A DNA stretch of 64,000 nucleotides, taken from NCBI GenBank assembly GCA_963580285.1, contig OY757012.1, forward strand, positions 166,148,652 through 166,212,651. The letters are read 5' to 3'. Within the stretch, counting starts at the first letter, position 1. Every line of letters starts with the position of its first letter. The stretch comes from Lucinisca nassula (taxonomy: Eukaryota > Mollusca > Bivalvia > Lucinida > Lucinidae). The notes beneath the pieces were generated by a model, which was not told where the DNA came from, did not search any database, and worked only from the letters and a program-made list of their open reading frames with translations. This document shows, one piece after another, positions 20,309-55,044 of the stretch. A program made the position numbers and the translations under genes.

Positions 20309-20607
20309 TTGGGGTATCTATAATGTTAACTTGACACAAATCTTACCGGGATAATATATGCACGATGTATTTTCACCATCTATTAATAGCCGGATATTGT
20401 TTTCTCTGCGTGACGTAATTCACTACGCGTTTGTTTTGTCTGTTGCCACGAGCCATAGACCACGCTTGTAGCCTTGTAATTGATTGATTTCAATCCTTTT
20501 GTTTGACAAATAACCACGCATTGAAAGTGTTATTTCGCTGTTTATATTTCATTTTCGTGCTGTTTTTGTGACAGTTTTGTCTACCTACATTATGCGTTTA
20601 ATATAGC

Positions 20608-20844
20608 TGTAGAACTTTCAGTTCGGTATTCCGTTTTACCGCACCACACCATGACCGGACTAACCAAAACCGGAAGCTGACACGTTTTCCTCTACAGAGG
20701 CCTCTTGGGATTTCTATGGCTTTGGCGAACGACGTACTATTCCGTTAGCTGAAGCATCCAAGGCTATCCACCAAAGAAGACACAAAACGACTCACTACTA
20801 GCGACCACAGGCCACTGTAATCGGTGAGTATCAGATTTTCTACA
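20608..20844 (+). repeat. 5' LTR of element 1
   Basis: 237 bp, from TGTAGAACTTTCAGTTCGG to CAGATTTTCTACA, matching 33037-33273. TGTAGAA and TTCTACA form the short terminal inverted repeat. The last 25 bp hold a consensus 5' splice site. Confidence 0.95.
20820..20831 (+). promoter_or_regulatory. Splice donor near the end of the 5' LTR
   Basis: TCG|GTGAGTAT, with the cut after 20823, is close to the metazoan consensus. Element 2 has CA|GTGAGTAT at the equivalent place (49857). Paired with the acceptor at 28643 it would give a subgenomic mRNA that skips gag-pol. Confidence 0.55.
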
Positions 20845-20845
20845 G

Positions 20846-20857
20846 TGGCGCTGCGAC
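20846..20857 (+). other. Primer-binding site
   Basis: TGGCGCTGCGAC begins one base after the LTR and would pair with a tRNA 3' end in CCA. I cannot name the tRNA from sequence alone. Confidence 0.55.
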
Positions 20858-20900
20858 AAAACATCATATTTTCCATATTTTTGCTCCGAAAGATTGCCCT

Positions 20901-21190
20901 TTCACAGCGACCTTGCAGGAAGACATACGAGACGATAAAGATCATTGTACATCGAGGAAGTCTGTCATTGCAAATATGATATCAACGGTCGTATTGACCT
21001 CTTCAAGCTGTTAAAGAACATTTTCATCGGTCATCTACAAGATTTTCACAGCGACCTTGCAGGAAAACATACCAGGCGATAAAGACCATTTGCTTTGGGC
21101 ATGAAGTAACTTTGCCAATGCAAATGTGATATCAACGGTCCTCTTGACCTCTAAAGGTTATAAAGAATACTTTCATCGGACATTTAGATA
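20901..21190 (+). repeat. Tandem duplication in the 5' leader of element 1
   Basis: Two units offset by ~144 bp share TTCACAGCGACCTTGCAGGA, CGATAAAGA, GCAAAT(A/G)TGATATCAACGG and TTTCATCGG. The leader otherwise has no coding sequence up to the Gag start at 21353. Confidence 0.75.
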
Positions 21191-21725
21191 TTTTTATTAG
21201 CTCCTGACTGAAATTTCAGCTTTTCTTAACGAGTACCCACAACATAAAAAAAAAAAACCAGGAATAGAAGAATATAATTTGTATTATTTTCTGACTTGTT
21301 CATTTGTCCCCATTATCTGCTTTCCAGTACAGGTTTTGCCCTGCAAGATATAATGGCTTCTAACGTGACAGAAAAGGTGAAAATTAATTTTTGTGCACCA
21401 AGGGAACTTCTCAACCTCCCAGGGATTGGTAGGAATTTATGTGATGCCATCTTAGACCTCAGGGATTCCAAAGGTAACCTCAAGGCCGAAGATTTGGGCA
21501 GTGTCAAATATCTACATGTCACTCAGGACTTGGTAGATAGGATTGACTTTGAACCTTACGAGCCCAACCCACAACCTAACCCGGCATTTAGAACATGGCA
21601 AGATCAATTGTCATCCCGCATAGATCAAGCAATAGAGGGTTCGGGTTTAAAAGGCCCGCCAACACAGTACCTGTGCCCACCTGCATCTAGCCAGTCGACT
21701 GACACAAGTATTTACCAGTCTTTGG

Positions 21726-21948
21726 CGTATTTATGTTGTTGTTTGTTACTTACTGTGTGTATCACTTGTGTCTTTTGTTTTGGATGGCCATATGGCCATT
21801 TTGTGGGAAAGTAACTGTCCTTATGGCCTTCCTTTGTGTAGGTTTCCATTATGGTCTAGTCGCTTAATGTTTGTATTTCTTTCCCTTTGGTGTCTTTTAT
21901 GGGTGGAGTAAGTTAATTGTATCAATTCCTGATCTTTGTTTTACTTCT
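21726..21948 (+). mobile_element. 5'-truncated retroelement R, copy R1
   Basis: Reverse complement of the 29355-29580 sequence, from GGCGTATTTATGTTGTTG to GTTTTACTTCT. Flanked by TCTTTGG at 21719-21725 and 21949-21955. The 3' terminus TTTACTTCT equals that of R3. It interrupts Gag. Confidence 0.85.
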
Positions 21949-23379
21949 TCTTTGGGACAAACCCAGCCTACTGCCGGTACATCCAGGGGAGTTTTCAGTA
22001 GCATGTCACAGCAGGGGAGTACCCCGCATCCCTTTCAGATGGGATATGGGAGTTTGCAGCAAACTCCGCAACAGTCTTTGGGATTCATGAATCCGCAACC
22101 CAATTTAGCATATCAAATGCCATACAGAGATGCCCGTCTAGAACCAAATTATTATTTACCACCTAAGGGTAACCCAAACTTTAATATGGGCACTAGAAAT
22201 GAATCTTCGCAAAATTTCACAGCGATGCCAAGCCAGTATTTGAATGAACAGGGCCAAAATCAGACCCAACCAGGTTATTCGGCCTCTCAATTTCCAAATA
22301 GACTACCCAAGGCGGATTGGTTACCAAAATCATTGTATTACGACCCCCCTCAAAACTACTTGGGAAGCTTTTTACTTAAAATTCCATAATTTTGCGAGAG
22401 TGAAACACTGGACCTCTGAAGAGTGCAAGTCAAAGCTATTGTATGCACTTGAAGGTAAGGCATCAGAATTTTTTGCAACTCTACATGAACGGGAACCTAA
22501 TCTACCCTATTATGATGTAATCAGCACGATGGAGGCCCGTTTCGCATTCAGGGAATTGCCGGAAACATCCCAGTTGTCTTTTCTTAACTGCAGCCAGAAC
22601 CGAGATGAGAAAATAGGAGAATGGGCAGATCGTGTACTCACACTGGCAACCAAAGCTTATCGCAATTTGCCAGACGAGCACATTCAGAAACAGGCAGTGT
22701 TACGCTTTTGCCATGGCTGCTACGACAAGAATGCCGGTATGCATGCAGCAAACAAAATGCTAAGTCGTATGGAGGAGGTCATTGATTGTGTTAAATGGTT
22801 TTAATATAACCAACAGATTTTTCATGACAGATCAAGGGACAGAAAAAGTGTCAACATGATAGGAGAAAGTTAGTCCTATAGTTTTTCCGAGCCACAAGCA
22901 CGAGTAACTTCATCTAACTATAGTGGTGCTGAGGCATCGGGGTATCCAGCATTTGGAGACAACCCGCCACAAATGGGTGTGCAAGTGTGGTCAACTACAT
23001 TGCAGGATCAGTCGTCCAAGGCTCAGTCCTGGGAACCCCAACGAAGCAGATATATGTCTTATAGGGGATCCCGTCCAGCTAGCCCTAAAAGTCAGAACGA
23101 CGGTGACCAAGGCAAAACACCGAGTAGTGCTCCCACCATGGAGGATAGACTGGCACGACTCGAACAGAAATTTGAAAAGCTGATGGAAAGTCTACTTAAG
23201 GCTGATGAGTCCAAGTTCCAGACCAGACTGCCTGCCTCGCCTACAAGGAGTGATACAGCCACTGGGAGATCTTCATCTCCGTCACGCTGTTTTGGCTGTA
23301 ATGAAGAGGGTCATTTTAAAAGAGATTGCCCTAAATGGAAGAAGGTATCATTCAGCGTTAACCGGGTGAATGAAGATGA

Positions 23380-23386
23380 TTTAAAC
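23380..23386 (+). promoter_or_regulatory. Putative -1 ribosomal frameshift heptamer, gag to pro
   Basis: T TTA AAC in the gag frame is a classical X XXY YYZ slippery site. After a -1 slip the next codon (CGA at 23386) lies in the frame that stays open through the protease to 24846, and the gag stop is only 25 nt downstream. GC-rich sequence follows (GGGTCGGACCC, AGGCCTAGGCCCGGCC), able to form stems 10-40 nt later. Confidence 0.65.
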
Positions 23387-24846
23387 GACGGTGGGTCGGA
23401 CCCAGAGGCCTAGGCCCGGCCCTTCAAGGCAACAAAGGCCATTTTACAGAACCTGACACCAGTGAACAGGACGATGCGCAGTCCGATACAGAATGTGAGA
23501 CGCTAAAGAATTACGGAGATTGGATTGATGGGGTTTACTGTCAGAAATTTGGTACATCTACCCCGAAAGAGAAAGCTCTAAGTACCTCTAAGGAATATGA
23601 AGATTGGCTGGACTTGAAGTATGAAGAAACCTTCAGCAGCCTGTCACTAAACAGTTCGGATTTAGAAGAGTCTTTGAAAACGAAAGATACTGTGAACACA
23701 GATTCAAGTAACATTAAAGAGGGGTACTTGGTACAGAATGATACTGAAAACGCGGATGCTTTTCAGGTTAAAGAAGGGTACTTGGTACCGAAAGATACTG
23801 AGGACGCGGATGCTTTAAAGGTGAAAGAGGGGTACTTGATGCCGAAGGATACTGAGAACGCGGATGCTTTAAAGGTGAAAGAGGGGTACTTGATACCGAA
23901 GGATACTGGAAACGCGGACTGTAGTAAAGTTAAAGAGGGATACATTGGTACGACAATTACTGGAAAGAAGTCTTCATGCAGTATTGAAGAGGGATTCATG
24001 GTACCGAAGTTACTTGGAAATCACAACCTTGAGGAAGGATGCGGGGTGCCCAATCCTTCAAATCGGGAGCCAGAGGCCAGAGTGGCCGATAATATCAAAG
24101 AGTCGCAGGGGATTGTAAGTTATCCGCTCAAACTCCAACCAGTTGGACGGGAGTTGACCTCCGAAAATTCGGTAAAGTTTAATGACCTTGATAGTTTTAT
24201 TTTAGGTCCTACAGGAAGTCAGTCGATGCATCCCGATGGTGAGACCACCACTTGGGAGGATATCACCATCTGCCAATTACGTTCATCATCAATGTTAAGA
24301 GTTTCAGTAGTTTTGCAGGACAGACCACTGAGAGCAGTAGTGGATACAGCCGCTGAAGTCACAATTTTTTCTGATAGGGTTTTTACAGAAATGGACCCCA
24401 AACCCCCCTGCTTGAAGAATGTTACATTACTCACAGCAGGGAGAGATATGAAAATGCATGGCTTCGTTGTAGGTCCTGTTAATTTGCAGTTGGGTAGCTG
24501 CATTTTTCCAGAAGCTGTCTATGTGGCCCCAATTCAGGATGATAAGTTATTGGGTCTGGATTTCCTGTTGAGACATGGTGTTGATATTAAATTGGAAGAA
24601 CTTTATCTTAGTTTCAGGGAAAAGGGTGAGAAAATCCCCATTGAGGTGGAGAAGTCCAACAGTAAGGATAATACTGTTGCTCGGGTCACTATACATAAGA
24701 CCACTAAAATTCCCCCAAATTCTCTTGTCAGGCTCCAGTGTGAAATAGCAGATAGACTAACAGATTACATTATTGAACCTGATCTTGATCTTGGCGTTGT
24801 TATTCCTAGAACTTTGCACTCGGGTGGTTCGAATATTGCATGTTGA
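23386..24846 (+). CDS. pro: Retropepsin-like aspartic protease region with KEGY repeats
   Basis: This frame is open from the -1 frameshift site. Four exact-length 54-bp repeats (23716-23931; KEGYLVPKDTEDADALKV-like, 18 residues) and a fifth partial one form an acidic linker. The protease follows: LRAVVDTAAEVTIFSD carries the catalytic DTA triplet (D codon at 24343) and DKLLGLDFLLRHGVDI is the downstream flap/ILG-like motif. Retropepsins act as dimers to process Gag-Pol. The frame ends at a TGA (24844) although homology to the pro-RT linker continues in another frame from 24840, so one shift separates it from the RT. Confidence 0.8.
   Translation, partial: RRWVGPRGLGPALQGNKGHFTEPDTSEQDDAQSDTECETLKNYGDWIDGVYCQKFGTSTPKEKALSTSKEYEDWLDLKYEETFSSLSLNSSDLEESLKTKDTVNTDSSNIKEGYLVQNDTENADAFQVKEGYLVPKDTEDADALKVKEGYLMPKDTENADALKVKEGYLIPKDTGNADCSKVKEGYIGTTITGKKSSCSIEEGFMVPKLLGNHNLEEGCGVPNPSNREPEARVADNIKESQGIVSYPLKLQPVGRELTSENSVKFNDLDSFILGPTGSQSMHPDGETTTWEDITICQLRSSSMLRVSVVLQDRPLRAVVDTAAEVTIFSDRVFTEMDPKPPCLKNVTLLTAGRDMKMHGFVVGPVNLQLGSCIFPEAVYVAPIQDDKLLGLDFLLRHGVDIKLEELYLSFREKGEKIPIEVEKSNSKDNTVARVTIHKTTKIPPNSLVRLQCEIADRLTDYIIEPDLDLGVVIPRTLHSGGSNIAC
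23716..23931 (+). repeat. Four 54-bp coding repeats
   Basis: Each unit is 18 codons beginning AAAGAGGGGTACTTG. Only a few differences separate units 2 and 3, so the array expanded recently. Confidence 0.9.
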
Positions 24847-26693
24847 ACCTAACTGATCGCTCAGTTAAACTTAAAAGGAAACAACAGGTGGCTAAAGCAT
24901 TCCCTATTTGCCACGTCCGTCCTATTTCATTGGATAAAATGGGGAACACTTCACTAAATCCTAACACATTAATTAATGAGTTTGATTCTGTTGTAGAAGA
25001 TGGGGCCTCAGAACCTACTAAACGGTCCATTTTGACAGAGTTACCAGAACACGCTAAACCGGATAGCAGCTATACTGTCCCCAATATAGCCCATCCTCAT
25101 CAAGTAGACCCCCATGATTTTCATTTCACTGTTGCAGAAATAAGCCTACCGGATGAGAGTGAACAAAAAGGTCAGCGTGAACCAATAGTATTGCCGGACC
25201 ACCTCAAGGAACTTTTTCACCGTTCTATAGAACATCTTAATAAAGAAGAACAGTGTCATTTGGCCAACTTATTGGTCGAATTTGAAGATGTTTTTGCAAA
25301 GTCCGAATTTGATATGGGAAATTTTTCAGACATAGAACATGACATCGATACAGGTTCAGCAAAATCGAGAAACAGAGAATGAGACGAACTCCAGCTGGTT
25401 TTGCTCATGAAGAGGAGGCTCACCTCGAGAAGATGTTAAGAGCTGGTGTTATTCAACCATCTATTTCAGAATGGGCATCTGCGTCCGTGTTGGTCCGAAA
25501 ACGGGATGGTACCGCGAAATGGTGCGTGGACTATAGAGCCTCAAACTCTGTTACCACCAAAGATGTTTTCCCTTTACCATTAGTTAATGATTGTCTTGAC
25601 ACTCTTGCAGGGAACCAATGGTTTTCGAAGCTCGATGCAAACTCTGCTTATTGGCAGATCAAGATCAGTGAAGCAGATCGCAGGAAGACTGCATTCATTA
25701 CTAAATATGGTCTCTTTGAACATGTTATAATGGGATTCGGGCTCTGCAATGCTCCGGCCACATATGCCCATGTGATGAACCTTGTATTACGAGGAATAAT
25801 GTGGAGTATTGTCCTTGCCTTTTTTGATGACATCCTTGTATTAGGTTCCACTTTCTTTGATCAATTGATCCCACTTACGGGAGGTGCTGCTGCGTTTTCG
25901 CAGACATCAGCTGAAACTAAAGCCAAAAAAAAATGCATTATGTTCCAGAAAAAAGTGGATTTTTTAGGCAGAATCATCAGCGCAGAGGGTATTGAACTTA
26001 CAAAGGCCGATATACAGTCAGTCTTGGAATGGCCTACCCCAAAGAACACTAGGGAAGTAGAACAGTTTTTAGGCTTAGCGAATTATCATCGAAATTTCAT
26101 AAAAAGTTTTGCCCACCTTGCTGTTCCTCTTTATAGGTTGACTGGAAAACATACCCTCATCTGGCAACAGAATCATCAAGAAGCCTTTGAAGGGCTAAAG
26201 AGGGCTTTAACCAGCCCGCCTGTGCTAGGTTTACCCAATAATTATGATCTGTTTATTTTAGATACGGATGCCTCGAACCAGGCTATAGGGGCTGAGTTAA
26301 TAAAGTTGCAGGAAGGTGAAGAAAGGTTTATTGCATATGGCAGCTATGCTTTGACCGCAGAGCAGCTGAACTACTGCACCACAAGGAAAGAGCTTTTGGC
26401 TCTGGTGCGCTTCACCAGACAATTTCGCCATTATCTCCTAGGGAGACAGTTCCTAGTTCGCACAGATCAAAACAGTTTCAGATGGCCTTAATTTCAGAGA
26501 GCCTGATGGGCAATTAGCCCGCTGGCTTGAAGAACTGAGTCAGTACGATATGGTTGTAAAACATCGTCCAGGGAAAAAACACGAGAACGCCGATGCCCTG
26601 TCAAGAATACCGCGAGCTGAGTCTTTTGACTGTTCAAACTATCGCTTAGGGATTAAATTAGAGGATATCCCATGTGGTGGGTGTACCAAGTGA
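24840..26693 (+). pseudogene. pol: Reverse transcriptase and RNase H of element 1
   Basis: The linker (24840-25382) passes, with a shift near 25362, into the RT. Recognisable RT blocks are EKMLRAGVIQPSISEWASAS, WCVDYRASNSVT, FSKLDANSAYWQIKI, a fingers/palm GFGLCNAPATYAHVMN and the catalytic FFDDILVLG (consensus YxDDILV). RNase H follows, with DTDASNQAIGAEL and the catalytic segment KELLALVRF, and ends out of frame at GKKHENADALSRIP (to 26693) after a shift near 26485. Between 25865 and 25933 the peptide is unlike any RT, while another frame matches the family; an A9 run (25925-25933) closes this pair of compensating shifts. RT order and motifs are typical of Ty3/gypsy. Confidence 0.88.
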
Positions 26694-26750
26694 ACTAGAG
26701 CCCATGAGAAGTGGTCTCGTTTCACAGAAGAAGTTGATAATGTCGTCTCC

Positions 26751-28340
26751 TTGACCTGGCGACAGGTGGCAGCAGAGTCCATTATCACAGAAGACTCAAC
26801 AGAGGCTGAAGATCAGAGATTTTTCACATATATCCAGGATGTGGCAGAGTCTGAGACAGTTGACCAAGAGGGCCCTGGCATGGATTTTTTCTGTCAGCTA
26901 GTTCTTCTGACAGACCCATTAAGTGAGACTATCATCTGCAAATCTTCTAGTGGGCCAGAAAAATGGGTTAATGTAAAGGAAGAAGATGCTATGACTGCTG
27001 GGGTGAACCCCAAACGAACCACGGTATCACAGGTTGCCTCGAGTGATTTACCAGACCTGTTGAACGATCTGAAGGAAGAGCAGCAGAAAGACCCAGACCT
27101 GGAGTATCTGAGAGAATGTTGGTTGGCAAAAAAGTCACAGAGGTTGCAAAAAAATACTCTCATGGCAGCTAGTCCGGCGGCAAAGTTTTACTGCATCAAC
27201 AAAGATTTATTTCAGTGGGATGACAATCTAATCTGGAGAAGGCGTAAATATGAGGACCAACCCTGACGTTTGGTAATACCAGATACACTGACAGAAGTAG
27301 TGGTAGAGATGTGCCATAAAATACCTTCATCACGACATCAATCTGCAGAACGTACAGTCAACAGGGTAAAACAGAAGTATTTTTGGTATGGGATATCAAA
27401 ATGGATTACCAACTACGTAAGCATGTGTGAGACCTGTAACCGTAATAAAAACCTAACAAGAATGCCCGATGTCCACTGACTAAATTTCACGCCGGGGCAC
27501 CGCTTGAACGGGTTCATATTGATTTCCTAGGACCACTTCCAAAGACAGAGAGGGGAAATGAACATATTCTGATGATTGTGGACAAGTTCACAAAGTGGGT
27601 GGAGTGTATCCCGTTACCCTTGCAGTCTGCTGAGATGACGGCCCAAGCAGTGGTAAACGATTTCTTCTCTAGATTTGGTTACCCGTTTCAAATAATGAGC
27701 GACCAAGGCCGGAACTTTGAAAGCAAGTTATTCGCAGCACTATGTGAAGCGATGCAAATTCACAAGACCAGGACCACCCCACTACAGACCTTCAGCCAAT
27801 GGCCAGGTTGAGAGATTCAACCGTACCCTGATGGACGCTGTCCGTTGTTTTGTTGCAGGTAATCAAAGAAATTGGGATCTGCATTTGGCCAAGATAGCTG
27901 GCGCTCTGAGATCAGCCGTGAATCGGAGTACTGGATTTACTCCAAATATGATGATGCTGGGCAGAGAAGTCAATCAGCCCGTTGACCTTTTGTTTCCCAC
28001 AAAAACCACAGAAATGTCTGCAGATCATTATGTAGCCGAGCTGCAGAAATCATTGAAAAAGGCACATGATGTGGCACGGAAGAACCTTTAGACGACACAG
28101 GAACGGATGAAACGAGATTATGATCTCAAGACGTATGTTAGGGTGTATGACATAGGAGACCCAGTTTATATTTTAGACACCGCTACCATCAAGGGCCAGT
28201 GTAAAAATCTGAGCCCGCCCTGGAAAGGCCCGGGAATTGTGGTGAACAAGTTCACCCCGTACTTATACCGGGTGAAGCTAAAAAATGCCGTCTTCACTGC
28301 AAACCACGACAGGCTTAAACCCTGTAGAGATAGGAGGCTA
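26751..28340 (+). pseudogene. int: Integrase of element 1
   Basis: After a ~170-residue charged linker come the HHCC zinc site (CHKIPSSRHQSAERT ... MCETCNRNK) and the catalytic core. The three acidic residues are visible: D in RVHIDFLGPLPKT, D in QIMSDQGRNFESK, and E in NGQVERFNRTLMD. The C-terminal part has KRDYDLKTYVRVYDIGDPVY and the GPGIVV...YRVKL segment of the GPY/F-type module. Breaks: TGA at 27264, a shift near 27468, a shift near 27780 and TAG at 28089, both stops being single in-frame changes. Integrase joins the cDNA to target DNA; the 4-bp duplication at the ends fits. Confidence 0.88.
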
Positions 28341-28427
28341 CCAGAATGGCTGGATAGATTTAGATCAAATTTCAGGGATATCCTAAAGAAAGATGAGCCA
28401 GATGACAATGTGGGCACTCATCAGCCC

Positions 28428-28613
28428 GTATACTGTATTTGCAGGAAACATGATCGTGGTGATGTAATGATTCAGTGTGACTCTTGTAGTGAATGGTTCC
28501 ATGGTACGTGTGTTGGAGTCACTGCAAACGATGCACTACAAATAAAAAAATACAAGTGCCCGCCTTGCATCTCTGGGTCTGGGCGAAACAGGGCACATCT
28601 GGTACCTTCTTAG
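28428..28613 (+). CDS. PHD finger fused to the integrase C-terminus
   Basis: In frame with the integrase, VYCICRKHDRGDVMIQCDSC continues with EWFHGTCVGV and KYKCPPC: a C4HC3 PHD finger with the Cys spacing and the Trp before His typical of histone-tail readers. Known PHD fingers bind methylated or unmodified H3; here it could guide integration, by analogy with chromodomain-bearing Ty3/gypsy integrases. That role is inference. The frame stops at TAG 28611, immediately before a splice acceptor. Element 2 keeps the same domain at 51856-52011. Confidence 0.9.
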   Translation, partial: VYCICRKHDRGDVMIQCDSCSEWFHGTCVGVTANDALQIKKYKCPPCISGSGRNRAHLVPS

Positions 28614-28646
28614 TTTTGTGCTAACTTCCTTCTTCTGTTTCAGGCA
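28614..28646 (+). promoter_or_regulatory. Splice acceptor upstream of ORF3
   Basis: GTGCTAAC (branch-point-like), a pyrimidine tract TTCCTTCTTCTGTTT and CAG| at 28643 directly after the PHD stop; the ORF3 ATG lies 3 nt into the exon. Element 2 has the same arrangement (CAG| at 52073, ATG at 52076). Confidence 0.7.
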
Positions 28647-29354
28647 ATGGAAGGAAGTGAAGGGGAAGCTATCCCGCAAGCTATGGACATTGATAGGGGG
28701 GACACCCCGCAAGAAGCTGGTCAGGAATCCGGCACACAGAAAGATGACCACTGGGGTGTTAATTCGCCCGCCCGTTTAGAGACTGGATCTCCGGATGATG
28801 AGGAAATGCTCGTCTTATCAGCAGTTGGAGAAGAGTCGGTGGGGAGTACCCCGGAACATTGGCAACAAAGATATGACCAGTATTTGCAAGACTCGCCAAT
28901 TACACCACAGAAGCCCAAGGAGTCAGCTAAGCCCAAGGAATCTACTAAGAACCAGTCACCTACTAAACAGGATAAGATTGACTCCCTGTTGGTAACAATG
29001 CAAAGAAGGGCGGAGTACTTCTTTCAGCAAACTGCCACCACTAATCTGCCTACTGGAGGGGAAGTACAGGATAGGAGGGCTAAGGCGGAAGAAACAGTTC
29101 AGTGGGCTCGCCTAATGAACTACGATGAGGTATTGGTGGATGCCCAGGTCTTTCTTAATACCCTTGGGGTCACGACCCCGTCAATAGATGCTGTGACCAT
29201 GGCAGAGCTAGTGATGGGGCAGTATAACCTAGCAAAAAGACAAGGAGATGAGTCCTGGCTGCGAAGAGCCAGTCAGTCGGCTACTTTATTCTTCCAAACG
29301 GATTGGGTTGACAGCCATCTCCAGCGTTGGACAAAGGGTAAACCTTTGGTAAGT

Positions 29355-30829
29355 AGAAGTAAAACAAAGATCAGGAATTGATACAATTAACTTACTCCAC
29401 CCATAAAAGACACCAAAGGGAAAGAAATACAAACACTAAGCGACCAGACCATAATGGAAACCTAAACAAAGGAAGGCCATAAGGACAGTTACTTTCCCAC
29501 AAAATGGCCATATGGCCATCCAAAACCAAAAGACACAAGCGAGACACACAGCAAGCAACACACAACAACATAAATAAATCGCCACAGAAGAGCCGCCTTG
29601 GAACGGTCAGTGGAAGATTTCCACTGGGGGGCTTAAATCGATTTTACGTGGCCACAATCCTCGCCCTTACTTCCGTCGCGATTTAGACAAATAATTTGTT
29701 CAGTCCGCATGAAGGCTCCTAACTCATCAGTGCAACATCTCCGTGAACACAAAAATCAAAGAACCACAGAGGTGAGACAACGGTGAGGACTCGACAGCAA
29801 GAAACCACTGAAATGCTGGAGCAAAAGAAAACCAACAGTTAGACTCCGATGAGCCCGACCAGAGACAGAGCATCAGGCACCAACCGACATTATCTCTCTA
29901 ATTTTCAATAAGCCTTTACGTTGGAGCCGTCATAGAATCTGAGGCCTGACCCACCGGCGTGCAATTAAAGAGGGAAGCAAAGTTGCCAACCGTGATTGGG
30001 TTAACTACCATGCATGCAGTCTGTCGTATAATATCCATGTTGTACCCAATCTTTTTATATCGAAGAATGATTTTACGAAATTGGGTGCTGAAGTCATTGC
30101 GGTTATATATTTTTCTGAATTTATATGCTAAGTCACCATAAAATTCGGGTTCCGATAGACCTTGTTGCAGAAGAGATTTAAGTCCAATATTGAATTTTGA
30201 AATTAAATCAGAATGGCGTCTATAAAATTTTGAAAAGGCTTTGCGCAGTTTATGGTACCGATAACCCTGGTTAAGGAGTTTAGCCGTTAATAATTTATTA
30301 CGAGTGTTGAAGTCAGTTACATGACTACACACTCTAGCAAATCGAATTAATTGCGAAATATAAACGCCATAGGATGGCGCACGAGGAACATCACCATCCA
30401 AAAAAGGAAAATTTACAATCTCAAAATCAAAGTCATCGCGTTTATCATAAATTTTGCACGAAACAAATCCATCTACAATAGACAGATGTAAATCCAAAAA
30501 CGGGGCCTCAGTATCAGAAGAATTTGCTTTATTTAACTGAAGTTCTAGGGGGTAAATCTGACTGATCAAACCATCAAAATAGGTATTATCAATATTTAAT
30601 AAATCATCTAAATATCTAGAAGTAGAGCTAAAAGCTTCAATAATTTCAGATTGGTTATCAATGGAAAGCGACAAAATGAAGTCTCTTTCATAACAATACA
30701 AGAACAGATCAGCCACAAGAGGTGCGCAATTAGTACCCATCGGAATACCCACAATTTGTCTAAATAACTTAGTACCGAATCTAATATAAACAACCCGTCG
30801 ACATAAACCCTCAGCAACTATACCAGCCA
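29355..30829 (-). mobile_element. Retroelement R, copy R2, with reverse transcriptase fragment
   Basis: Minus-strand insertion into ORF3, beginning with the family 3' end AGAAGTAAAACAAAGATC at 29355. Its coding part (29916-~30825) has FRQIVGIPMGTNCAPLVADL, the catalytic SRYLDDLLNIDN, and a C-terminal NPITVGNFASLFNCTP. The PMGTNCAPL / Y-L-DD set resembles Penelope-like RTs more than LINE or LTR RTs, but I cannot fix the class. It is 5'-truncated inside the RT, and only the right edge (30829) is approximate. A long 3' UTR (29355-29915) includes GGCCATATGGCC. Six copies are in this window. Confidence 0.75.
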
Positions 30830-32097
30830 TGACAGCCATGCCTAAGGATTGGCGAGTGACCGAAGTGGGACAGGATCTTCCCACTGCAAGGTTCAATGCA
30901 GCAGCCTCTGAGAATGTGCCAGAGCCTTCACCTTCATCTAGGGATAAATCCCGTGACTCTGGTACTGCCCGCAAATCCAGCGAAGGAAGCGTTAGTCTTA
31001 GGGGTGAACTCCAGCAAGATCATATCTCCCGGCATAGACACAGACAGGGTGAGGAACGGCGTCACGAGAGTAGGAAGACATCGTCTTTGCGGGACAAGTC
31101 TCCAGTCCGACAATCCAGGCACAAGCGACATGCATATTCTAGATCGTCTCGTTCTTACCTGTCACCAGTCAGAACGCCAAGTTCAAAACATCCCAGGTCA
31201 CCTGTTAGACCACCCCGTGCGGAGGAACCAGCAAGGTCCCACGATTCAGGCTCACGTAAACGTCGGGCTACTGAAGGAGTTAAGTCCCTGGAATCGGCAA
31301 GTAAAAGGCACAGGAAGTCCATACCTCACCAGTTCTGTCCTGTCAGCGGTTGTACCATAGCCACCAGGTTCTTGAAGGAGCATGTCCAGTCTGAACACCT
31401 CCCAAGTTTATTTCACCAACTGGAACCAGAGGACAGGTCGATGGCTTATACTCATCGACAGCGTCTGCATGGACTTACCCAGCTAGCTTCCAGCATCTTG
31501 GGACCTAATTCTTTACCTGAGGACTTAGTGGCATATCTTAATGCCCGGCTGCAAGATGTTATACATGTTCCCACCAACATTTGGGGGCCGCTTCAAGGTG
31601 ACATGAGAGCCTTATGCCGATTTGCGAGATGGCACATTCCAGTCAGTTTTGAAGTATTCCCCAAGATCAACTCGCCTGCAGCACTGCTTTATTGGAGGAT
31701 TCTTGTATTTTAATTGAGCCAATTGACAGATGCTGAGAGGACAGAATTTCACCTCACCTATGATGCTGGACACCGTTTTGGGGAAATTCCCCGTAGGACA
31801 TCCATTGAAGAATCGCTACATGCAACCACATCCGCTGGAAAGCCTGGGGAACCATCTCTTAGATGCCCCGTGGAAGAACCACTCCCAACAGTTGGGAACA
31901 CTGAAGAAATTGGTTCCGAAGATGTCCCACACCACACAGGTGCAGACTCCCTCCGCATTGTGGAAAATTTGGTCCCACGAGACCGCAGAGGTGTTATCAC
32001 CGTATATCCGCCACCACCACTCAGGGTCACAGTTGGAAATGAACAAGATGGAAGAACACTGAGAAGTTCCACTTACACCTCAGAAGTTAATTTCCCC

Positions 32098-32915
32098 GCT
32101 GCTTTTGATAGTCATTTCCACCTCGACAGGACAGCTAGGAAGTTAGGTGTTGATGATGTTACAGCAGTGACAGTTGATGATATCCTGGAATACTCCCTTC
32201 CTCATGCGCCTTCTAATCCCGTAAAACTGATCGGTGGAGTTATGGTTTTCTGTGACCCAGAGACAAAACTAACACTCCCTCTGATGGATGGCAGGTGGAA
32301 AATAGCTGTTGGACTGCACCCGAAGAAGGTTTCCCAATATACATAAAGTTACTTGGATACTTTGAAAACCCTTCTAGATTCCAATCCATTAGTGGCTGCT
32401 CTGGGAGAGATTGGTTTAGACAGAACCGAGCCAGATTATCTGTGGGCTGAGCAGGACAAAGTCTTCAAACAACTACTGACTCTTTGTCACCCTAGTAAGG
32501 TGCTGGTCCTTCACTTTAGGGGATCCTCTAACCGGCATTGTTCTGACGTCCTCATGGCGGCTCTGCAGTATATTCGGAAGGCATGCCCAGTAAACCAGGA
32601 AATTCACCTACACTGCTTCACAGGTCTCCAAAGTGATGTGGAGAATTGGTTGGAAATTTTCCCAATTGCTATTTTGGGTTCACCGCAAGGGTTACTGCCC
32701 ACACCGACGCTCAACTAGATGCCCTGAAGTATGTACCCAGCGACAGGATCCTGCTGGAGACAGACTCGCCATATATGCCAGTTGACAGAAACAACCAGGT
32801 GAACACACCGGCCTACTTGGGAGATGTAGCCAAAACCGTTGCTCGCTGCAGAGGAGTGTCATTGAGGGAGCTGTTGGCGGTCACTGTGACCAATGGCCAA
32901 CGGCTGTACCAGTAG
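32098..32915 (+). pseudogene. TatD-like metal-dependent hydrolase domain of ORF3
   Basis: TatD proteins are TIM-barrel metal-dependent DNases. The ligand motifs appear in order: HxH in AFDSHFHLDRTAR (32113-32121), E in ALGEIGLDRTEP, H in VLVLHFRGSS, H in EIHLHCFTGL and D in RILLETDSPYMPV. GLHPKK and YFGFT also fit. All ligands survive although the frame is broken by TAA (32344) and a shift in a T-run near 32658. Length, about 270 residues, equals that of bacterial and eukaryotic TatD. Element 2 holds a homologue at about 53540-54277. Confidence 0.85.
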
Positions 32916-33018
32916 CTCCAGACCTCAACAGGGGTTTGTCCCCGCATAGATCTCACTAGGGGTTTAACCCCGCATAATCCTGCTGCTGATATGGAGGGCC
33001 GATTGGCAGGACTCTTTG

Positions 33019-33036
33019 AAAGAAAAGGGGGAGGAG
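33019..33036 (+). other. Polypurine tract of element 1
   Basis: AAAGAAAAGGGGGAGGAG directly before the 3' LTR, the plus-strand primer site in LTR retroelements. Confidence 0.85.
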
Positions 33037-33273
33037 TGTAGGACTTTCAGTTCGGTATTCCGTTTTACCGCACCACACCATGACCGGACTAACCAAAACC
33101 GGAAGCTGACACGTTTTCCTCTACAGAGGCCTCTTGGGATTTCTATGGCTTTGGCGAACGACGTACTATTCCGTTAGTTGAAGCATCCAAGGCTATCCAC
33201 CCAAGAAGACACAAGACGACTCGCTACTAGCGACCACAGGCCACTGTAAACGGTGAGTATCAGATTTTCTACA
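33037..33273 (+). repeat. 3' LTR of element 1
   Basis: 237 bp matching 20608-20844 with about six substitutions and no length change; ends TTTTCTACA, followed by the TAGC target duplication. Confidence 0.95.
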
Positions 33274-33818
33274 TAGCTTACTCTTTTATCAATATTTCTA
33301 TATGTATGTCTATCTGTCTGTCAATCTGTCTGTCCGTTGTACCTTTTTCTATTCCTATTTCCTGTGAGCCTGTCTTCCCCAATCTGATTAGTTGAACTAG
33401 TTTTTGTGTATGTTTATTTCCTGTTGATTCATATTTGTTCTGAACTATGTCCGACGTCGACGAGGGTGGACCAAGTGACCCAAAGAGGCCGCGTATGGAA
33501 ATTGTTTGGAACCTTTGTATTGTCTGTCAAACAGACGATAAAGCCAAGCTTCTGTTGGAGAAACCGAGCTCTTACGAACAAATACTTGATTCCATCCATA
33601 CTCGCGGGCAATACGGGGATGGGATATACCCAGAGAGAAGTAGGCAGCTTGGTGATATATCAACCACTTTGCTGAAAGAAAAAGGTGTAACTTGGCATAA
33701 AGAGTGTTACAAAAACACCACAAGTAAAAACAATATTGCAAGAGCGAAAGCTCGATATGAGAAAGCAATAGCAAGCCGTGCTGGACCAGGCTATGTTTTA
33801 GAGGAATCTAAACAAAGT

Positions 33819-34011
33819 AGAAGTAAAACAAAGATCAGGAATTGATACAATTAACTTACTCCATCCATAAAAGACACCAAAGGGAAAGAAATACAAACAT
33901 TAAGCGACCAGACCATAATGGAAACCTAAACAAAGGAAGGCCATATGGACAGTTACTTTCCCACAAAATGGCCATATGGCCATCAAAAATTAAAAGACAC
34001 AAGTGATACAC
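33819..34011 (-). mobile_element. Retroelement R, copy R3
   Basis: 193-bp 5'-truncated copy starting AGAAGTAAAACAAAGATC. Flanked by ACAAAGT at 33812-33818 and 34012-34018. Removing it with one duplicate keeps the host frame open. Confidence 0.9.
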
Positions 34012-36354: not shown

Positions 36355-36717
36355 TAAGTTTTATAAAAGGGTTATCCTTTGGAAGCAAGGAATACACCAC
36401 AGAAGTGAAAAATATGGAGTGTACATGTTTTCTGGGCCAGACTAGCTAGTTTCGGCCAATTAGGCCTCATCAGTGACCCTCAGATATTTTCTAAATTCCA
36501 CAATGGAATCAATGATCCCAAAGAACAAGAAAATATTATCTACACTATGATGTAGGGCAGGGAGACGTTTTACCGCCGCCACACATTCCCAGACACCAGC
36601 TGTAGTGAAGTTAAATATGTTCTATAAAAGGGTTATCCTTTGGAAGCTAGGAATACATCACAGAAGTGAAAAATATGGAGTTTACATGTTTTCTGGGCCA
36701 GACTAGCTAGTTTCGGC
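36355..36717 (-). mobile_element. LINE 3'-end dimer (L2)
   Basis: Two copies of a ~105 bp segment (36355-36459 and 36613-36718; AGGGTTATCCTTTGGAAGC ... ACTAGCTAGTTTCGGCC) flank ~150 bp containing GGCCTCATCAGTGACCCTC and GGGAGACGTTTTACCGCCGC. The last motif matches the C-terminal coding end of LINE L4, so this is a tandem 3' end in minus orientation. Confidence 0.6.
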
Positions 36718-36810
36718 CAAGGACTTCGGAAACTTTGTAAAGACATTTGCCCCGGAAATTATAAAATTCTCAAATTTAACCAAACGAACTCATCACAGAG
36801 GCAACTTAAA

Positions 36811-37755: not shown

Positions 37756-37984
37756 TTTCTTAGCTTTGTCTCTTTCATCGACATTACAAGGATTTACAAA
37801 CCCGTTTGAATACGAGGTTGATGACATTGTCAATATAGTAACAAAAGCTGTAGTTCCTGAAAATGTCCAAAGTGACCTGGCAAAGATCGAGAAAGTAGGA
37901 TGACTTTCTTGAATCATTACTGAAGTCACAGCGAATAAATGTCTGGGACCCCATGAAAAATATTTCACTTAAAACATGGAAAGT

Positions 37985-38307
37985 AGAAGTAAAACAAAGA
38001 TCAGGAATTGATACAATTAACTTACTCCACCCATAAAAGACACCAAAGGGAAAGAAATACAAACATTAAGCGACCAGACCATAATGGAAACCTAAACAAA
38101 GGAAGGCCATAAGGACAGTTACTTTCCCACAAAATGGCCATATGGCCATCCAAAATTAAAAGACACAAGTGATACACACAGTAAGCAACAAACAACAACA
38201 TAAATAAATCGCCACAGAAGAGCCGCCTTGGAACGGTCAGTGGAAGATTTCCACAGGGGGGGGGGGCTTAAATCGATTTTACGTGGCCACAATCCTCGCC
38301 CTTACCG
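37985..38307 (-). mobile_element. Retroelement R, copy R4
   Basis: Starts AGAAGTAAAACAAAGATC after GGAAAGT and runs through GGCCATATGGCC to CCTCGCCCTTAC, with a G9 run. It interrupts the FEN/CXC gene. A matching duplicate on the right is not evident. Confidence 0.8.
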
Positions 38308-49557: not shown

Positions 49558-49895
49558 TGAAGTGAGATTCGGTAATTAGTCACACCTCTACGGTAAACTG
49601 AGTGACCCAACGGTAAATTGGGTGACCACCCTTGAGTAAAGAGGGCGCTGTTCCCGCGTGACTGGATGATGTTTGCCATCGTTGCTATGCTGTCTCGAGA
49701 TCTCTGCGGAAAACAGTGTTGATGCTAACTCCTGATAGGTCAATAAGGGAACGCAGGGGGCCGTGTGCAGAGCAAGAGAGCGACCTACTTCACTCTGATA
49801 TCTGGTTATTGCAAGAAGACGTAGAAGTCGACTGCTGTCCAAGGGGCATACTTTCAGTGAGTATTTTAGCTTATATGTCCCTGGAAAATATTACA
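49558..49895 (+). repeat. 5' LTR of element 2
   Basis: From TGAAGTGAGATTCGGTAATT to GGAAAATATTACA; matches 54702-55044. A CA|GTGAGTAT donor lies at 49857. Confidence 0.92.
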
Positions 49896-49896
49896 A

Positions 49897-50165: not shown

Positions 50166-51742
50166 GTGCAAGTATTGTGTTCGAGCGCACAAGAATTGGG
50201 GCTCGTTGAGGAGGTTGACGAGGCAGTTCCACTGGCAACAGAGGGGATGCACGGATTCTGGTTAAAGGGTGGCCACCATGGATTAGGATCAGGCACGTAT
50301 AGTATCAATGTGGAGACTGAGTCCGTCACGAGAAGTGGATGCAAACATGAAGTAAGTCTGGGTAACGACAGTGGCAAGACAGTTCAGGCTGTAAACATGG
50401 AACCCATAATGCCTAGCTCCCATAGGGACACGTCAGAGAGTCCAGGAGGGAATCTGTTCCATGCTGAAATCATCTTCAAAGCAGAAGGCATTGAAATGCT
50501 GACAGTTGGTGTGACTGGCAGTACCACGCAAGGCTGCAAAGCTTCGTGCTGGGGGTTTTCAGTGGATGAGCTGAAAGAGGCTCAGGCCAAGGATGGAGAT
50601 CTTATTTTTATTCTAGACTGGTTAAAGGCTTCAATCACCCCAGGAAAGGGGGAGTTGTTTATTGCTAGCCCTGCAACTAAGTCATACTGGTTGAATAAAG
50701 AGCAGTTTGTCCTCATTGACGGAGTGCTGTTCCAGGAGGACAAGACTGGGGATAAGAAACTTGTCATTCCTGAGACACTGCGGAAAGAGGCTGTCAAAGG
50801 ATGCCATGATCTGCCTTCGGCAGGGGATAGCAAGGACAAAGGAACGGGTCAAAGAAAAGTTCGCTTGGCACGGGCTAGGGAAGTTTGTGGCCAGTTATGT
50901 AACTGGGTGTGAGCTGTGTAATCGATGTAAAAAAAGGAACTAGACAAAGGAAATGCCCACTTACAGAATATCAGGCTGGTGTGCCTATGGAGAGAGTCCA
51001 TCTTGACTTCCTGGGACCCTTACCCAAGACTTCCCGGGGTAATGAACACATTCTAATGATGGTAGACCAATTCAACAAATGGGTAGAGTGTGTGCCGCTA
51101 CCATCTCAGACTGCTGAGGAAACTGCTAGGGCTGCAGATGATCATTCCTTTTGCAGGTTTGGTTACCCCCTTCAAGTGTTTTCAGACCAGGGCAGGAATT
51201 TCGAGTCCAAGTTGTTTTCTGAATTATGCAAGGCAATACAGATGCACAAGGCACGGACTACGCCATATAGAGCATCCTCAAATGACCAAGTAGAACGCTA
51301 CAACCGCATATTGATGGATGCCGTTAGGTGCTACATTGGAAAAGCCCAGAATCATTGGGATTTGTACCTTCAACAGATAGCAGGGGCCTTGAGGGCATCA
51401 GTAAACCGTCAGACTGGCTATACTGCAAACAAGCTCATGTTGGGTAGGGAAATAAATACCCCAGCGCATTTAATGTTCCCCCAAGTCCAAGCTAAATGTG
51501 ATACCCCAGAGAATTATGTTGCCACCCTAGTCCGTTCCCTACAAAAAGCTCATGACACGGCTAGCGCGACATTGAAGACTACCACTAAACAGATAAAACG
51601 CGATTATGACCTTAGGGTTCTCGAGCGTACATATGCGGTTGGCGACCCATTGTATATTCTCGACTCCGCAGCAATTAAGGGACAATGCAAGAAATTAGGA
51701 CCTCCATGGAAGGTCCCTGGGGTAATAGTCAACAAGCTCTAA
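50166..51742 (+). pseudogene. int: Integrase of element 2
   Basis: A charged linker (50166-50650) is followed by the zinc site (KGCHDLPSAG ... GCELCNRCKK, split over two frames by a shift near 50825 and another at an A-run near 50935). The core is intact in one frame, with D in VHLDFLGPLPKTSRG, D in QVFSDQGRNFESK and E in SNDQVERYNRIL, then KRDYDLRVLERTYAVGDPLY. A stop at 51740 falls at the position equivalent to 28255 in element 1. The core differs from element 1 at many synonymous and conservative sites, so the two are separate lineages. Confidence 0.85.
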
Positions 51743-51855: not shown

Positions 51856-52011
51856 GTCTATTGTTTCTGTAGAAAACCATACCAAGGCCGCTTTATGATC
51901 CAATGTGATCACTGCGATGAGTGGTATCATGGGGCTTGCGTTGACATTACGGCATCAGACGCGCTATATATGTCTCAGTACAAATGTCCAGATTGCCTGC
52001 AAAGGAGGTAA
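51856..52011 (+). CDS. PHD finger of element 2
   Basis: VYCFCRKPYQGRFMIQCDHC, then DEWYHGACVDI and YKCPDC: a complete C4HC3 set ending 4 residues before TAA at 52009. It aligns residue for residue with element 1. Confidence 0.9.
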   Translation, partial: VYCFCRKPYQGRFMIQCDHCDEWYHGACVDITASDALYMSQYKCPDCLQRR

Positions 52012-52075: not shown

Positions 52076-54277
52076 ATGAATTCTGCCTTTGACCCAGAGA
52101 AATGGAGTGTGATTGCTGAGAATAATCTCAAGGATGTTGAGGCTGCTACCTAGGCACAGCGCCTCCTGCCTGTTGGAACCGTACTGGACCTCCTAATCAC
52201 TAGCAGAGACCATCGCCGCCATTACTTTGTGTTGTTGGGTCAAGCCAGGCTGGCCCGCAGCAGAGATTACAGAGTTTGGTTGCGCAGGGCAGCGAGGGAT
52301 GCAAGGGAATCTGGTATGTGGGAGAATGGGTGGATCGACGCTCACCTGAGTCGTGTTGGGAGAAGGCCTACCGTTAGATATCCAGATCAGACTATACCCG
52401 TAGCTGGGACATGTCAGCAGGATATTCGTCGGGATGATTCACTGTATACCACCGTTAGAGTGGATTTTCGGGCAGGTGCTGAAGGGACGGAACTACCTTC
52501 CGTGGAACAAGAGGAGATGTTGTTGGCTGGAGGGGATTTGGCAGAGTCAGCAGAGGTGAGCATTGGTGAGGAGCAGTTGCTGCTGGAGATGGACTACACT
52601 TTCCCAACGGACAGCGCAGGTGTGATTTCTCAGACCTCTGTCGACGTCAAGGAGCCCAGTGAGCAAGTGACAGGACCCAAGGAAAGACCTTCGTCTCACT
52701 CGGAACGTCGTAGATCCCCTCACTCGGAACGTCTAGATCCCCTCATTCGGAACGTCGTAGATCCCCTCACTCGGAACGTCGTAGATCCCCTCACTCGGAA
52801 CGTCGCAGATCCCCTTACTCTGACCGTCATAAATCGTCGAAGGAGGGTAGGCGTGTCCAGGACCGCCGATCCCCACGTCGTACATCCGAAGATCATGGTA
52901 GTTCTCGTCGTGACTGTATGAGGTGTTATGAAGATCATAAGAGCGAAGCGAAGGGCACCTCCCATTCAAGGCCAAGATCGAAGAAGGCCAGGGTAGAGAC
53001 CGCTTTGGTACCCAGAGGAGGAGGTGTGACGGTTGAGATACCAATGTTGAGCCCACCAAGACCTGGTGGTACCTATGTTATCAGCACTCAATCGGGTGGG
53101 GCACAGTGTCCCATTCCCAAATGCAGTCATCTGAACAGCAGGACTCATGCGTTCGCCACTCATTTGCCGTTGATTTTCCAGGAGGAAATCTCTGGTAATG
53201 ACGTAACAAGCAGAAGGATCGGTGCTCTTACAATGGTTGCTCAATGGTTGCTTTGTAGTCGGAACAATCTGGATGATTTGGTGACGTATTTCCAAATGCT
53301 GAACGTTCTGTCCACAGTTGACTGCTCGCCTAATCAGTTACAGCAGCGTGCTATGGCCGAAGTGTGCATTGAGCTTGAGAGGGACTCCACCATCTCTGTT
53401 TCTAGTACTCATCCTAGAATCCTTGTCACCCGGGGTGTGCTCCTTCATTTACTGTCCAGAGTACAACCACAGACCCATATTGCATCCTTAAGGACCCTTT
53501 ATCGTCTGACGGAGGAGGACGAGACTATGTTGCCAAAGCCTGCCATTGCTTTTGACAGCCACTGTCACCTAGACAGATGTCGGAGAGACTTGAAACTACC
53601 ATCCGATGCCAGTTTGCAGCAGATCTGTAGCAAGGCGAGACCGGACGATGAACACAAGGTTGATCTGGAGGGTGTAGTAGCCAACTATTGTGACCCCGAA
53701 ACCTATCCCAGCGTTGAGGAGATTCGAAGACTCACCAGTCAGGGCTCATTTGTGACAGTGGGGCTTCATCCCAAGAAGACCATTACTGAGAAGCAGCAAC
53801 AACGCCTTGAAGAGTTGGCAGCACTACCTGAGGTCTCTGGTTTAGGCGAAGTCGGAGTCGACCATACTGAACCTATCAACACCTGGGCCGACCAGACAGC
53901 CAGGCTGTATCGGGTCCTCAGATGCCGACCCATTGATCCTGGAGTTCTGGTGCTCCATTGCAGAGGATTGAAGAATGCTGACATTCTTAGATCATTGTTG
54001 GAGTTACGTGTCGGTAGTACACAGTTGATTCATCTTCATTGTTTCAATGCTGCTGTGGTCGCTAGGTGGTTGGGAGTTTTCCCGTACACATATTTCGGGT
54101 TTACCAAGATGGTGGGAAGCTTTTCTGGTGAATTGGCACAGGCGGTCAGGGACTTGCATGAATCCGGTGGTGATTGGGATGGTAGCGGCGGTGTTGGCCA
54201 AGATTAGAGGTGCGAATTGGAAGGCTATTCTGACAGTTTGTAGAGACAACGCCTTGAGGTTGTACAGAGATAGGTGA
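52076..54277 (+). pseudogene. ORF3 of element 2: helical module, SR repeats, zinc finger, TatD-like domain
   Basis: The start ATG follows the acceptor. A TAG at 52151 interrupts the frame early. The module LLGQARLARSRDYRVWLRRA ... WIDAHLSR matches ORF3 of element 1. A 24-bp repeat encoding HSERRRSP (about 52696-52820, five to six units) forms an SR-like basic tract; one unit lacks 2 bp and shifts the frame near 52735. A C2H2-like finger QCPIPKCSHLN...THAFATH follows, then the TatD-like domain: FDSHCHLDRCRRD, VGLHPKKT, GLGEVGVDHTEP, VLVLHCRGLK, LIHLHCFNAA and YFGFTK. The ETDSPY segment with the last metal Asp is deleted near 54170, and the C-terminal VLAKIRGANWKAI continues in another frame. 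Confidence 0.8.
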
Positions 54278-54701
54278 CCTCCCAGCCTCGACTAGAGGGG
54301 CTTGAGTAAAGGATTTGGGTGCCAGGCGCTCAATTCCGATACTCTAAACATCCAGCCTAGCCTGAACTTTCAGCACAACTGTCTATGGAGTTATAACGTT
54401 GCTTGTTGTCCTCCCAGTGATATTTGGGGCGTAAGCAAGTCCCTGTTATCAGCACATGACTATGGTACAACGTACATGACTATGGTACAACGTACATGAC
54501 TTTGGTACAATGATACAACGTACATGGCTTTGGTGCATCGTACATAACTGGTACAACGTACGTGGCTTTGGTACAACGCACCTGGAAGTGTGGTGCAACA
54601 CACAATCTGACCTATTCCATAGCTCTGCGCGTGCCAGGTGGCATCCCTGTCCGTTTGGTACAACGATGATGTCCACGTTTCCAAGGATAAAGTGGGGGGA
54701 G

Positions 54702-55044
54702 TGTAGTGAGATTTGGTAATTAGTCACACCTCTCCGGTAAACTGAGTGACCCACCGGTAAATTGGGTGACCACCCTTGAGTATAGAGGGCGCTGTTTCCG
54801 CGTGACTGGATGACGTTTGCCATCGTTGCTATGCTGTCTCGAGATCTCTGGGGAAAACAGTGTTGATGCTAACTCCTGATTGGTCAAGAAGGGAACGCAG
54901 GGGGGGGGGGGGGGTGCAGAGCAAGGGAGCGACCTACTTCACTCTGATATCTGGTTATTGCAAGAAGACGTAGAAGTCGACTGCTCTCCAAGAGACATAC
55001 TTTCAGTGAGTATTTTAGCTTATATGTCCCTGGAAAATACTACA
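54702..55044 (+). repeat. 3' LTR of element 2
   Basis: TGTAGTGAGATTTGGTAATT to GGAAAATACTACA, preceded by AGTGGGGGGAG as polypurine tract (54691-54701). Contains a G16 run where the 5' LTR has GGGGGCCG. Confidence 0.92.

Follow-up and report, generated by a model that had tools for sequence, protein, structure and literature searches.

A damaged Ty3/gypsy-type LTR retrotransposon of Lucinisca nassula with an apparent PHD finger on its integrase and a TatD-type nuclease as putative third gene

In a 64,000-nucleotide stretch of DNA from the bivalve Lucinisca nassula (the window; contig OY757012.1, positions 166,148,652 to 166,212,651), the segment at 20608-33273, here called element 1, was analysed following an earlier note made from the sequence alone. 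Our preferred reading is that element 1 belongs, as a damaged copy, to a Ty3/gypsy-type long terminal repeat (LTR) retrotransposon lineage with a PHD finger at the end of the integrase and a TatD-type nuclease as product of the third gene; taken together with the mechanism proposed below, this reading is given a probability of about 60%. The earlier note had described an LTR element with a ComEA-like helix-hairpin-helix (HhH) at the N-terminus of Gag, a PHD finger on the integrase and, in the env position, a third open reading frame (ORF3) with serine/arginine-rich (SR-rich), C2H2-like and TatD-like parts, and had suggested that these might serve cDNA processing, targeting or the disabling of rivals. 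This interpretation was partly supported: the recruitment of a nuclease and a PHD finger stood, while the HhH fell slightly under its cut-off.

The presence of an LTR element at these positions was confirmed. The two LTRs are 237 bp each, with 6 mismatches between them and ends TGTAG...CTACA, and a 4-bp target duplication, TAGC, borders the element at both ends; an LTR pair with TG..CA termini and a short target duplication is what a Ty3/gypsy LTR retrotransposon should have. Because the LTR pair and the TAGC duplication bound element 1, the sequence that codes for TatD is part of the insertion. The domain order protease, reverse transcriptase, RNase H, integrase is present. Pfam found a PNMA-type capsid, protease, reverse transcriptase and RNase H, and the integrase only weakly; the integrase was recognised mainly via a second element, element 2, described below. 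The main features of element 1 are as follows, with proteins matched in the searches given by P numbers.

20608..20844, plus strand: 5' LTR, TGTAG..CTACA, with the TAGC duplication at 20604-20607
25379..26491, plus strand: reverse transcriptase and RNase H (RVT_1 1.4e-17, RT_RNaseH_2 1.9e-28)
27717..28613, plus strand: integrase C-terminal half (rve_3 0.0029, under cut-off; 54-55% to the element 2 integrase)
28434..28568, plus strand: PHD finger at the integrase C-terminus (PF00628 2.8e-10; PHF2 2.8e-14, CFP1 3e-13)
28647..29350, plus strand: ORF3 N-terminal part, acidic and then helical domain (53% to P0050)
30829..31713, plus strand: ORF3 SR-rich linker and C2H2-like/helical domain (C2H2 pattern at about 31336-31398; 47% to P0050; residues 163-294 modelled confidently)
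31714..32915, plus strand: ORF3 C-terminus, linker and TatD domain (HxH start near 32098)
33037..33273, plus strand: 3' LTR, with the TAGC duplication at 33274-33277

The PHD finger on the integrase was borne out by a PF00628 match of 40.5 bits against a cut-off of 24. In a PDB comparison 56 sequences matched, the best being PHF2, CFP1, PHF8, JHDM1D and Spp1, with BPTF also similar. The fingers of PHF2, PHF8, CFP1, Spp1 and BPTF are readers of histone H3 trimethylated at lysine 4 (H3K4me3), and the element 1 finger has both the zinc-ligand pattern and the similarity to known readers that mark this type. A search with the integrase C-terminus returned 103 proteins, in which a PHD finger was scored by a chosen sequence pattern; the pattern was found in 54, all of which also contain the integrase C-terminus. 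The cage residues, which we take to be at the Y, M and W positions of the finger, read Y-M-W in 42 of these 54 relatives, and M was present in 53, W being imposed by the search pattern and hence not independent. Named PHD-bearing matches came from Lytechinus pictus, Mytilus galloprovincialis, Haliotis rubra and Diadema antillarum; two matches from Crassostrea virginica had no PHD finger and one from Nucella stopped before it. The resemblance to H3K4me3 readers suggests that the finger may read H3K4me3 and steer integration to active promoters. When the PHD finger of ING2 was fused to LEDGF's integrase-binding domain, HIV-1 integration shifted toward transcription starts (PMC8149907; here and below, PMC numbers refer to passages of the papers rather than to their full text).

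A TatD-like part in the env position was likewise found. PF01026 was matched in two frames of element 1, at 32353-32718 (2.6e-11) and 32646-32915 (5.1e-17), and once in element 2, with 43.8, 62.6 and 61.7 bits against a curated cut-off of 27; with three Pfam matches above the cut-off, a chance match was rejected. Active-site residues were compared in 70 search matches (P0001-P0070, the cut at P0070 being our choice). The six TatD positions (HxH, E, H, H, D) were all aligned in 58 of the 70 and canonical in 56 of these 58; the exceptions, P0044 and P0062, deviate at the last Asp, and the remaining 12 are without some aligned position. Element 1 has all six residues, over three separate frames, and element 2 has five of the six, the D lying outside the aligned frame. 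That ORF3 is instead a structural or chaperone protein whose catalysis is dispensable would agree with the roughly two thirds of the modelled protein that are disordered or helical, but the retention of the six residues makes this improbable. Since it starts with HxH, the ORF3 domain was placed in class II of TatD, which is distinguished by this start and includes TATDN2, TATDN3, YcfH and YjjV (PMC10085689).

P0049 was matched at 5.3e-32 by the NCBIfam TatD model TIGR00010, a match that does not reach the model's curated cut-off. Among the 16 chains matched by the ORF3 profile none was named TATDN2, and the bacterial YcfH (6.3e-30) matched better than human TATDN3 and TATDN1 (2.4e-12 to 1e-11). 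A tree was built from 65 ORF3-type sequences (64 of the 70, six with a TatD stretch under 180 aa being left out, plus element 2) and 110 other TatD sequences, comprising 61 database proteins of unchecked taxa and 49 from prokaryote or viral loci (3 viral), with no vertebrate TATDN. Against these 110 the ORF3 type formed one clade with a support of 0.934, which includes Mercenaria and Mizuhopecten proteins named TATDN2 (P0012, P0021 and P0026).

Self-comparison of the window revealed element 2, a second and diverged element at 49558-55044, with a CAAA target duplication and LTRs of 338 and 343 bp that are 93% identical.

49558..49895, plus strand: 5' LTR, with CAAA at 49554-49557 and GTGAGTAT at 49857
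50909..51742, plus strand: integrase core (rve 7.1e-12)
51856..51999, plus strand: PHD finger, by similarity
52076..54292, plus strand: ORF3, with ATG at 52076, an acceptor CAG 2 nt upstream and TatD from about 53551 (PF01026 9.3e-17)
54702..55044, plus strand: 3' LTR, with CAAA at 55045-55048 and GTGAGTAT at 55006

Neither gag nor reverse transcriptase was found between the LTRs of element 2, and its ORF3 has one in-frame stop and changes frame at about 52918 and 54160. At the protein level the two elements are 54-55% identical in the integrase C-terminal half, 47-55% in this half together with the PHD finger, 39% in the stretch N-terminal to it and 36-40% in TatD; the C2H2 piece of ORF3 failed to align. 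In six of six aligned segments the third codon positions were the least alike (identity 0.18-0.37 vs 0.50-0.76 at positions 1 and 2), which points to past protein-level constraint.

Element 2 keeps both parts, in agreement with the proposal that an LTR lineage recruited a TatD-type nuclease and a chromatin-reader-type finger. The earlier note had named two observations that would speak against it, intact relatives lacking ORF3 and a TatD segment of host origin captured only in this copy, and neither held: the PHD finger and the TatD-bearing ORF3 were retained in element 2, and long ORF3 relatives (about 680-1053 aa) were found elsewhere, one of them in a sea urchin. Capture of a host TATDN2-like gene, or inclusion of neighbouring host sequence, in this copy alone would be consistent with the TATDN2 annotation of the three mollusc proteins in the ORF3-type clade and with vertebrate TATDN2, which likewise has a disordered N-terminus and a C-terminal TatD (PMC12709183). 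However, the TatD gene lies within LTRs and target duplications in two elements whose LTRs have no significant similarity to each other (best blastn E 0.39), and ORF3 relatives are many, with a cluster of up to 52 members (P0062). Already contradicted by the second element and the many relatives, a capture restricted to this copy is very improbable and was rejected.

The layout of ORF3 comprises a helical N-terminus, an SR-rich linker, a C2H2-like/helical domain and a class II (HxH) TatD domain. A search with element 2 ORF3 returned 47 proteins and a search with an alignment of 14 of these returned 89, each among about 8000 scored candidates. Long relatives with the common layout include P0001-P0006 (638 to 751 aa), and those of 791 to 1053 aa include P0048-P0056 (P0053, 512 aa, excepted), P0062, P0063 and P0065; not all are whole, P0062 being without the last active-site Asp and P0065 ending short of it. 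Of the element 1 ORF3, the three pieces outside TatD matched P0050 and P0052 at 45-53%, and the two TatD pieces matched P0051, P0052, P0053, P0059 and P0067 at 68-72%. Named sources of the relatives are Mercenaria, Ruditapes, Dreissena, Mizuhopecten, Mytilus and the sea urchin Diadema antillarum; annotation names include TATDN2 and, in metagenome-assembled genomes of Thiodiazotropha and Sedimenticola, TatD family hydrolase, the latter being taken to be host DNA within symbiont assemblies. These matches would by themselves point to a bivalve as the probable source of the window.

The SR-rich and C2H2-like parts claimed for ORF3 were both present, but the latter was recognised from the spacing of its residues, C-x4-C...H-x4-H, and Pfam gave no match to it at E 1 or better. 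The structural model of P0049 (862 aa; 27 sequences) had a mean predicted local distance difference test score of 70 and a predicted template modelling score of 0.44, being poor over most of 1-82, 212-362 and 514-584 and confident near 120-199, 365-510 and 588-861. In a Foldseek search with the ORF3 model all 17 rows under E 0.001 were TatD structures (best 3.9e-13). The piece of element 1 at 30829-31710 gave a confident predicted zinc-finger/helical domain at residues 163-294, for which no solid PDB match was found. The claim of an ORF3 protein held as to its multi-domain nature but not as to its integrity in this copy, where the region is not one open frame: a 1.48-kb insertion occupies about 29351-30828, stop codons interrupt the frame at two places, near 31713 and near 32346, and the reading frame changes at around 32650-32700.

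A figure legend on the giant squid Hox cluster places a 'TATDN2' gene next to POGK and ZMYM1 (PMC6962438), and this gene may be an ORF3 of the element 1 and 2 kind. An ORF3 fragment (P0007) and an integrase fragment that ends before any PHD finger (P0234) lie on contigs of equal length (1,183,644) and possibly belong to one contig.

In retroviruses and errantiviruses the third gene, env, is expressed from a spliced RNA, with a donor in the leader and an acceptor ahead of the open reading frame. The plus strand of the window was scanned for splice sites with simple textbook matrices, and two candidate sites were found in element 1.

20824..20831, plus strand: candidate 5' splice donor GTGAGTAT, near the LTR end, the best-scoring donor listed before position 21360
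28624..28643, plus strand: candidate 3' splice acceptor (pyrimidine tract and CAG), top of the 3824 plus-strand AG sites

The CAG of this top-ranked acceptor, at 28641-28643, lies 3 nt upstream of the ORF3 ATG. With both strands counted, the 64 kb contain four copies of GTGAGTAT, exactly one per LTR of both elements and all in sense direction. Translation from 52076 in element 2 aligns at 42-47% with the N-termini of P0004, P0006 and P0001, which supports an ORF3 start there. The first residues in the gene model of P0050, ahead of MEG, give on back-translation a pyrimidine tract followed by CAG, a start that would fit the same acceptor. The scans were strong for element 1 and weak for element 2, and together these results support, by inference, translation of ORF3 from an env-like spliced subgenomic RNA with a donor near the LTR end and an acceptor before the ATG. 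Position and splice arrangement are also what a disguised envelope-like gene would show, but the ORF3 domains are a nuclease and a zinc finger, and among 22 chosen long relatives a 19-residue hydropathy window of at least 1.6 was found in two (P0016 1.62, P0057 1.67), the first windows reaching a maximum of 1.28. As this simple scan for a membrane segment or signal peptide gave two marginal windows and none at the start, the envelope explanation is exceedingly improbable and was rejected.

At the other end of the element, the HhH claimed for Gag had hits to EEPD1 (1.9e-6) and ComEA (0.1) in a phmmer search of PDB, but its Pfam HHH_3 match of 26.3 bits remained under the gathering cut-off of 27; the domain is probably present in element 1. 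The remaining features of the leader, gag and protease regions were as follows.

20846..20864, plus strand: candidate primer-binding site, starting TGG 1 nt past the LTR, assigned by position alone
21353..21718, plus strand: Gag N-terminus with probable ComEA/EEPD1-like HhH (HHH_3 7.8e-6, slightly below cut-off)
22244..22804, plus strand: Gag capsid-like region (PNMA match, PF14893 1e-7)
22973..23413, plus strand: zinc knuckle of CCHC type in Gag (CFGCNEEGHFKRDC), recognised by eye
23614..24846, plus strand: linker of 54-bp in-frame repeats and then aspartic protease

A primer-binding site is generally located just after the 5' LTR. A block of about 144 bp is duplicated in the untranslated leader (20900-21186), and between gag and protease, at 23664-24016, there are five in-frame 54-bp tandem copies encoding 18-residue repeats of the KVKEGYLVPKDTENADAL kind.

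Element 1 is interrupted by two inserted repeats.

21719..21954, minus strand: inserted repeat copy breaking gag, a shorter copy of the repeat in ORF3
29351..30828, minus strand: retroelement fragment within ORF3, with a reverse transcriptase-like minus-strand open reading frame at 29916-30974, the outer boundary being approximate

These two, with copies at 33814-34014 and 37977-38305, form one repeat family that shares one end and varies at the other, the pattern of a 5'-truncating retroelement. The reverse transcriptase-like frame of the longest copy (GIPMGTN, YLDD), which had no Pfam match, is presumably Penelope-like. Directly after element 1, a gene-like region at 33447-39851, with open reading frames at 34444-35664, 38283-38987 and 39252-39851 and a cysteine-rich end, resembles a further gene, either repeated or of the host. 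A long array of degenerate tandem repeats of about 145 bp each occupies 44012-46713.

Several observations weigh against the interpretation of element 1 given above. Both element copies are broken, and no activity can be claimed at this locus. In the material compared, which for relatives consisted of proteins, a PHD-bearing integrase next to ORF3 occurred in the two elements of the window alone. Of the 103 integrase relatives, 18 continue without a PHD finger, suggesting related elements that lack it, while 23 end before the finger and 8 reach it but miss the pattern. The HhH is weaker than the other parts and was examined in element 1 alone, without relatives. As for splicing, GTGAGTAT was picked as a motif after inspection of element 1, and at least four copies occurred in 14 of 100 shuffles; the element 2 donor scores 1.5, with three better donors in its leader (3.9, 2.5 and 1.9), and its acceptor has a modest score of 3.0, reached at 21 of 1220 ATGs including its own.

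Enzymes of the TatD family act as 3'-5' exonucleases and as endonucleases at abasic sites (PMC10085689); TATDN2 has been described as an R-loop RNase required in germ cells (PMC12709183). Judged from sequence, the likely use of ORF3 and the PHD finger is an element-encoded nuclear nuclease together with chromatin-guided integration. In the mechanism we propose, ORF3 would be made from a spliced subgenomic RNA in the manner of retroviral env; the PHD finger would read H3K4me3 and direct integration to active promoters; and the zinc finger and SR linker of ORF3 would bind nucleic acid, which TatD would cut. The enzyme would act in the nucleus, during or after reverse transcription or integration, on the element's own DNA or RNA ends, abasic sites or RNA in hybrids, and could trim cDNA ends, handle abasic sites or clear RNA at the target. 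This nuclear action on the element's own intermediates is the least certain step.

Alternatively, ORF3 might serve counter-defence as a 3'-5' nuclease, either trimming small guide RNAs or destroying nucleic acid of rivals or of the host. TatD enzymes digest single strands from the 3' end (PMC10085689, PMC12709183), silencing was raised by the bdelloid authors for their exonuclease ORF3 (PMC5408684), and the TatD nuclease QatD serves a bacterial anti-phage system, the QatD family match being far below its cut-off. However, no sequence pointer to an RNA-silencing partner was noticed, no search having been aimed at one, and we regard counter-defence as rather unlikely; action on the element's own intermediates is preferred, though not by much. 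H3K4me3 promoters are rich in RNA:DNA hybrids. A broader and quite doubtful reading joins the parts into one targeting system, in which the PHD finger would dock the integration complex at H3K4me3 promoters and TatD would clear RNA or process ends there; mollusc 'TATDN2' genes would then largely be ORF3, and animal TATDN2, with its R-loop RNase activity and germ-cell role, might share ancestry with ORF3.

Among known systems, chromoviruses are Ty3/gypsy elements with a chromodomain, a histone-reading module at the integrase C-terminus; element 1 shares such a C-terminal module but has a PHD finger of H3K4me3-reader type instead of a chromodomain. CR1-like elements reportedly carry esterase and PHD domains, as the title of a paper has it; they share the PHD module and differ in being non-LTR elements, which are not known to have an integrase. 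Retroviral and errantivirus env resembles ORF3 as a spliced third gene, whereas the ORF3 product looks nuclease-like and not like a membrane protein. The closest published precedent is the bdelloid LTR elements with an exonuclease-type ORF3: Juno and Vesta resemble element 1 in an ORF3 that follows pol and encodes an enzyme instead of an envelope, a 3'-5' exonuclease in some cases, but theirs is a DEDDy exonuclease or GDSL enzyme in rotifers whereas that of element 1 is TatD, and in the available text 'PHD' occurs in the reference list alone (PMC5408684). Ginger1 also combines a Gypsy-type integrase with extra C-terminal domains, Ulp1 and PHD in Ginger1-9_HM, but is a DNA transposon with terminal inverted repeats and no TatD in the passages on it (PMC2836005). 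TATDN2 and class II TatD proteins resemble ORF3 in an HxH TatD at the C-terminus behind a long disordered region (PMC10085689, PMC12709183), but TATDN2 is a host gene, and any kinship of vertebrate TATDN2 with ORF3 would be hypothetical.

No LTR element bearing TatD or a PHD-integrase was found in our searches of open-access papers, Repbase being outside the scope, which agrees with the earlier note's statement that it knew of no named element with this set. The papers examined on PHD and integrase described no PHD finger on an LTR-element integrase in their passages on PHD, and a match on TatD and retroelements concerns, in the passage found, a human retrocopy.

If the interpretation is correct, a TatD nuclease joins the short list of enzymes known as the third gene of LTR elements, and the PHD finger joins the chromatin readers on LTR-element integrases. 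The relatives of the TatD-bearing ORF3 and of the PHD-integrase in molluscs and sea urchins suggest use rather than accident. A testable model follows, in which integration would be steered by an active-promoter mark, with the ING2 PHD fusion as an engineered parallel (PMC8149907). Furthermore, transposon genes may inflate both the number of TATDN2 genes counted in genomes of invertebrates and the published claim of TATDN2 conservation among metazoans (PMC12709183).

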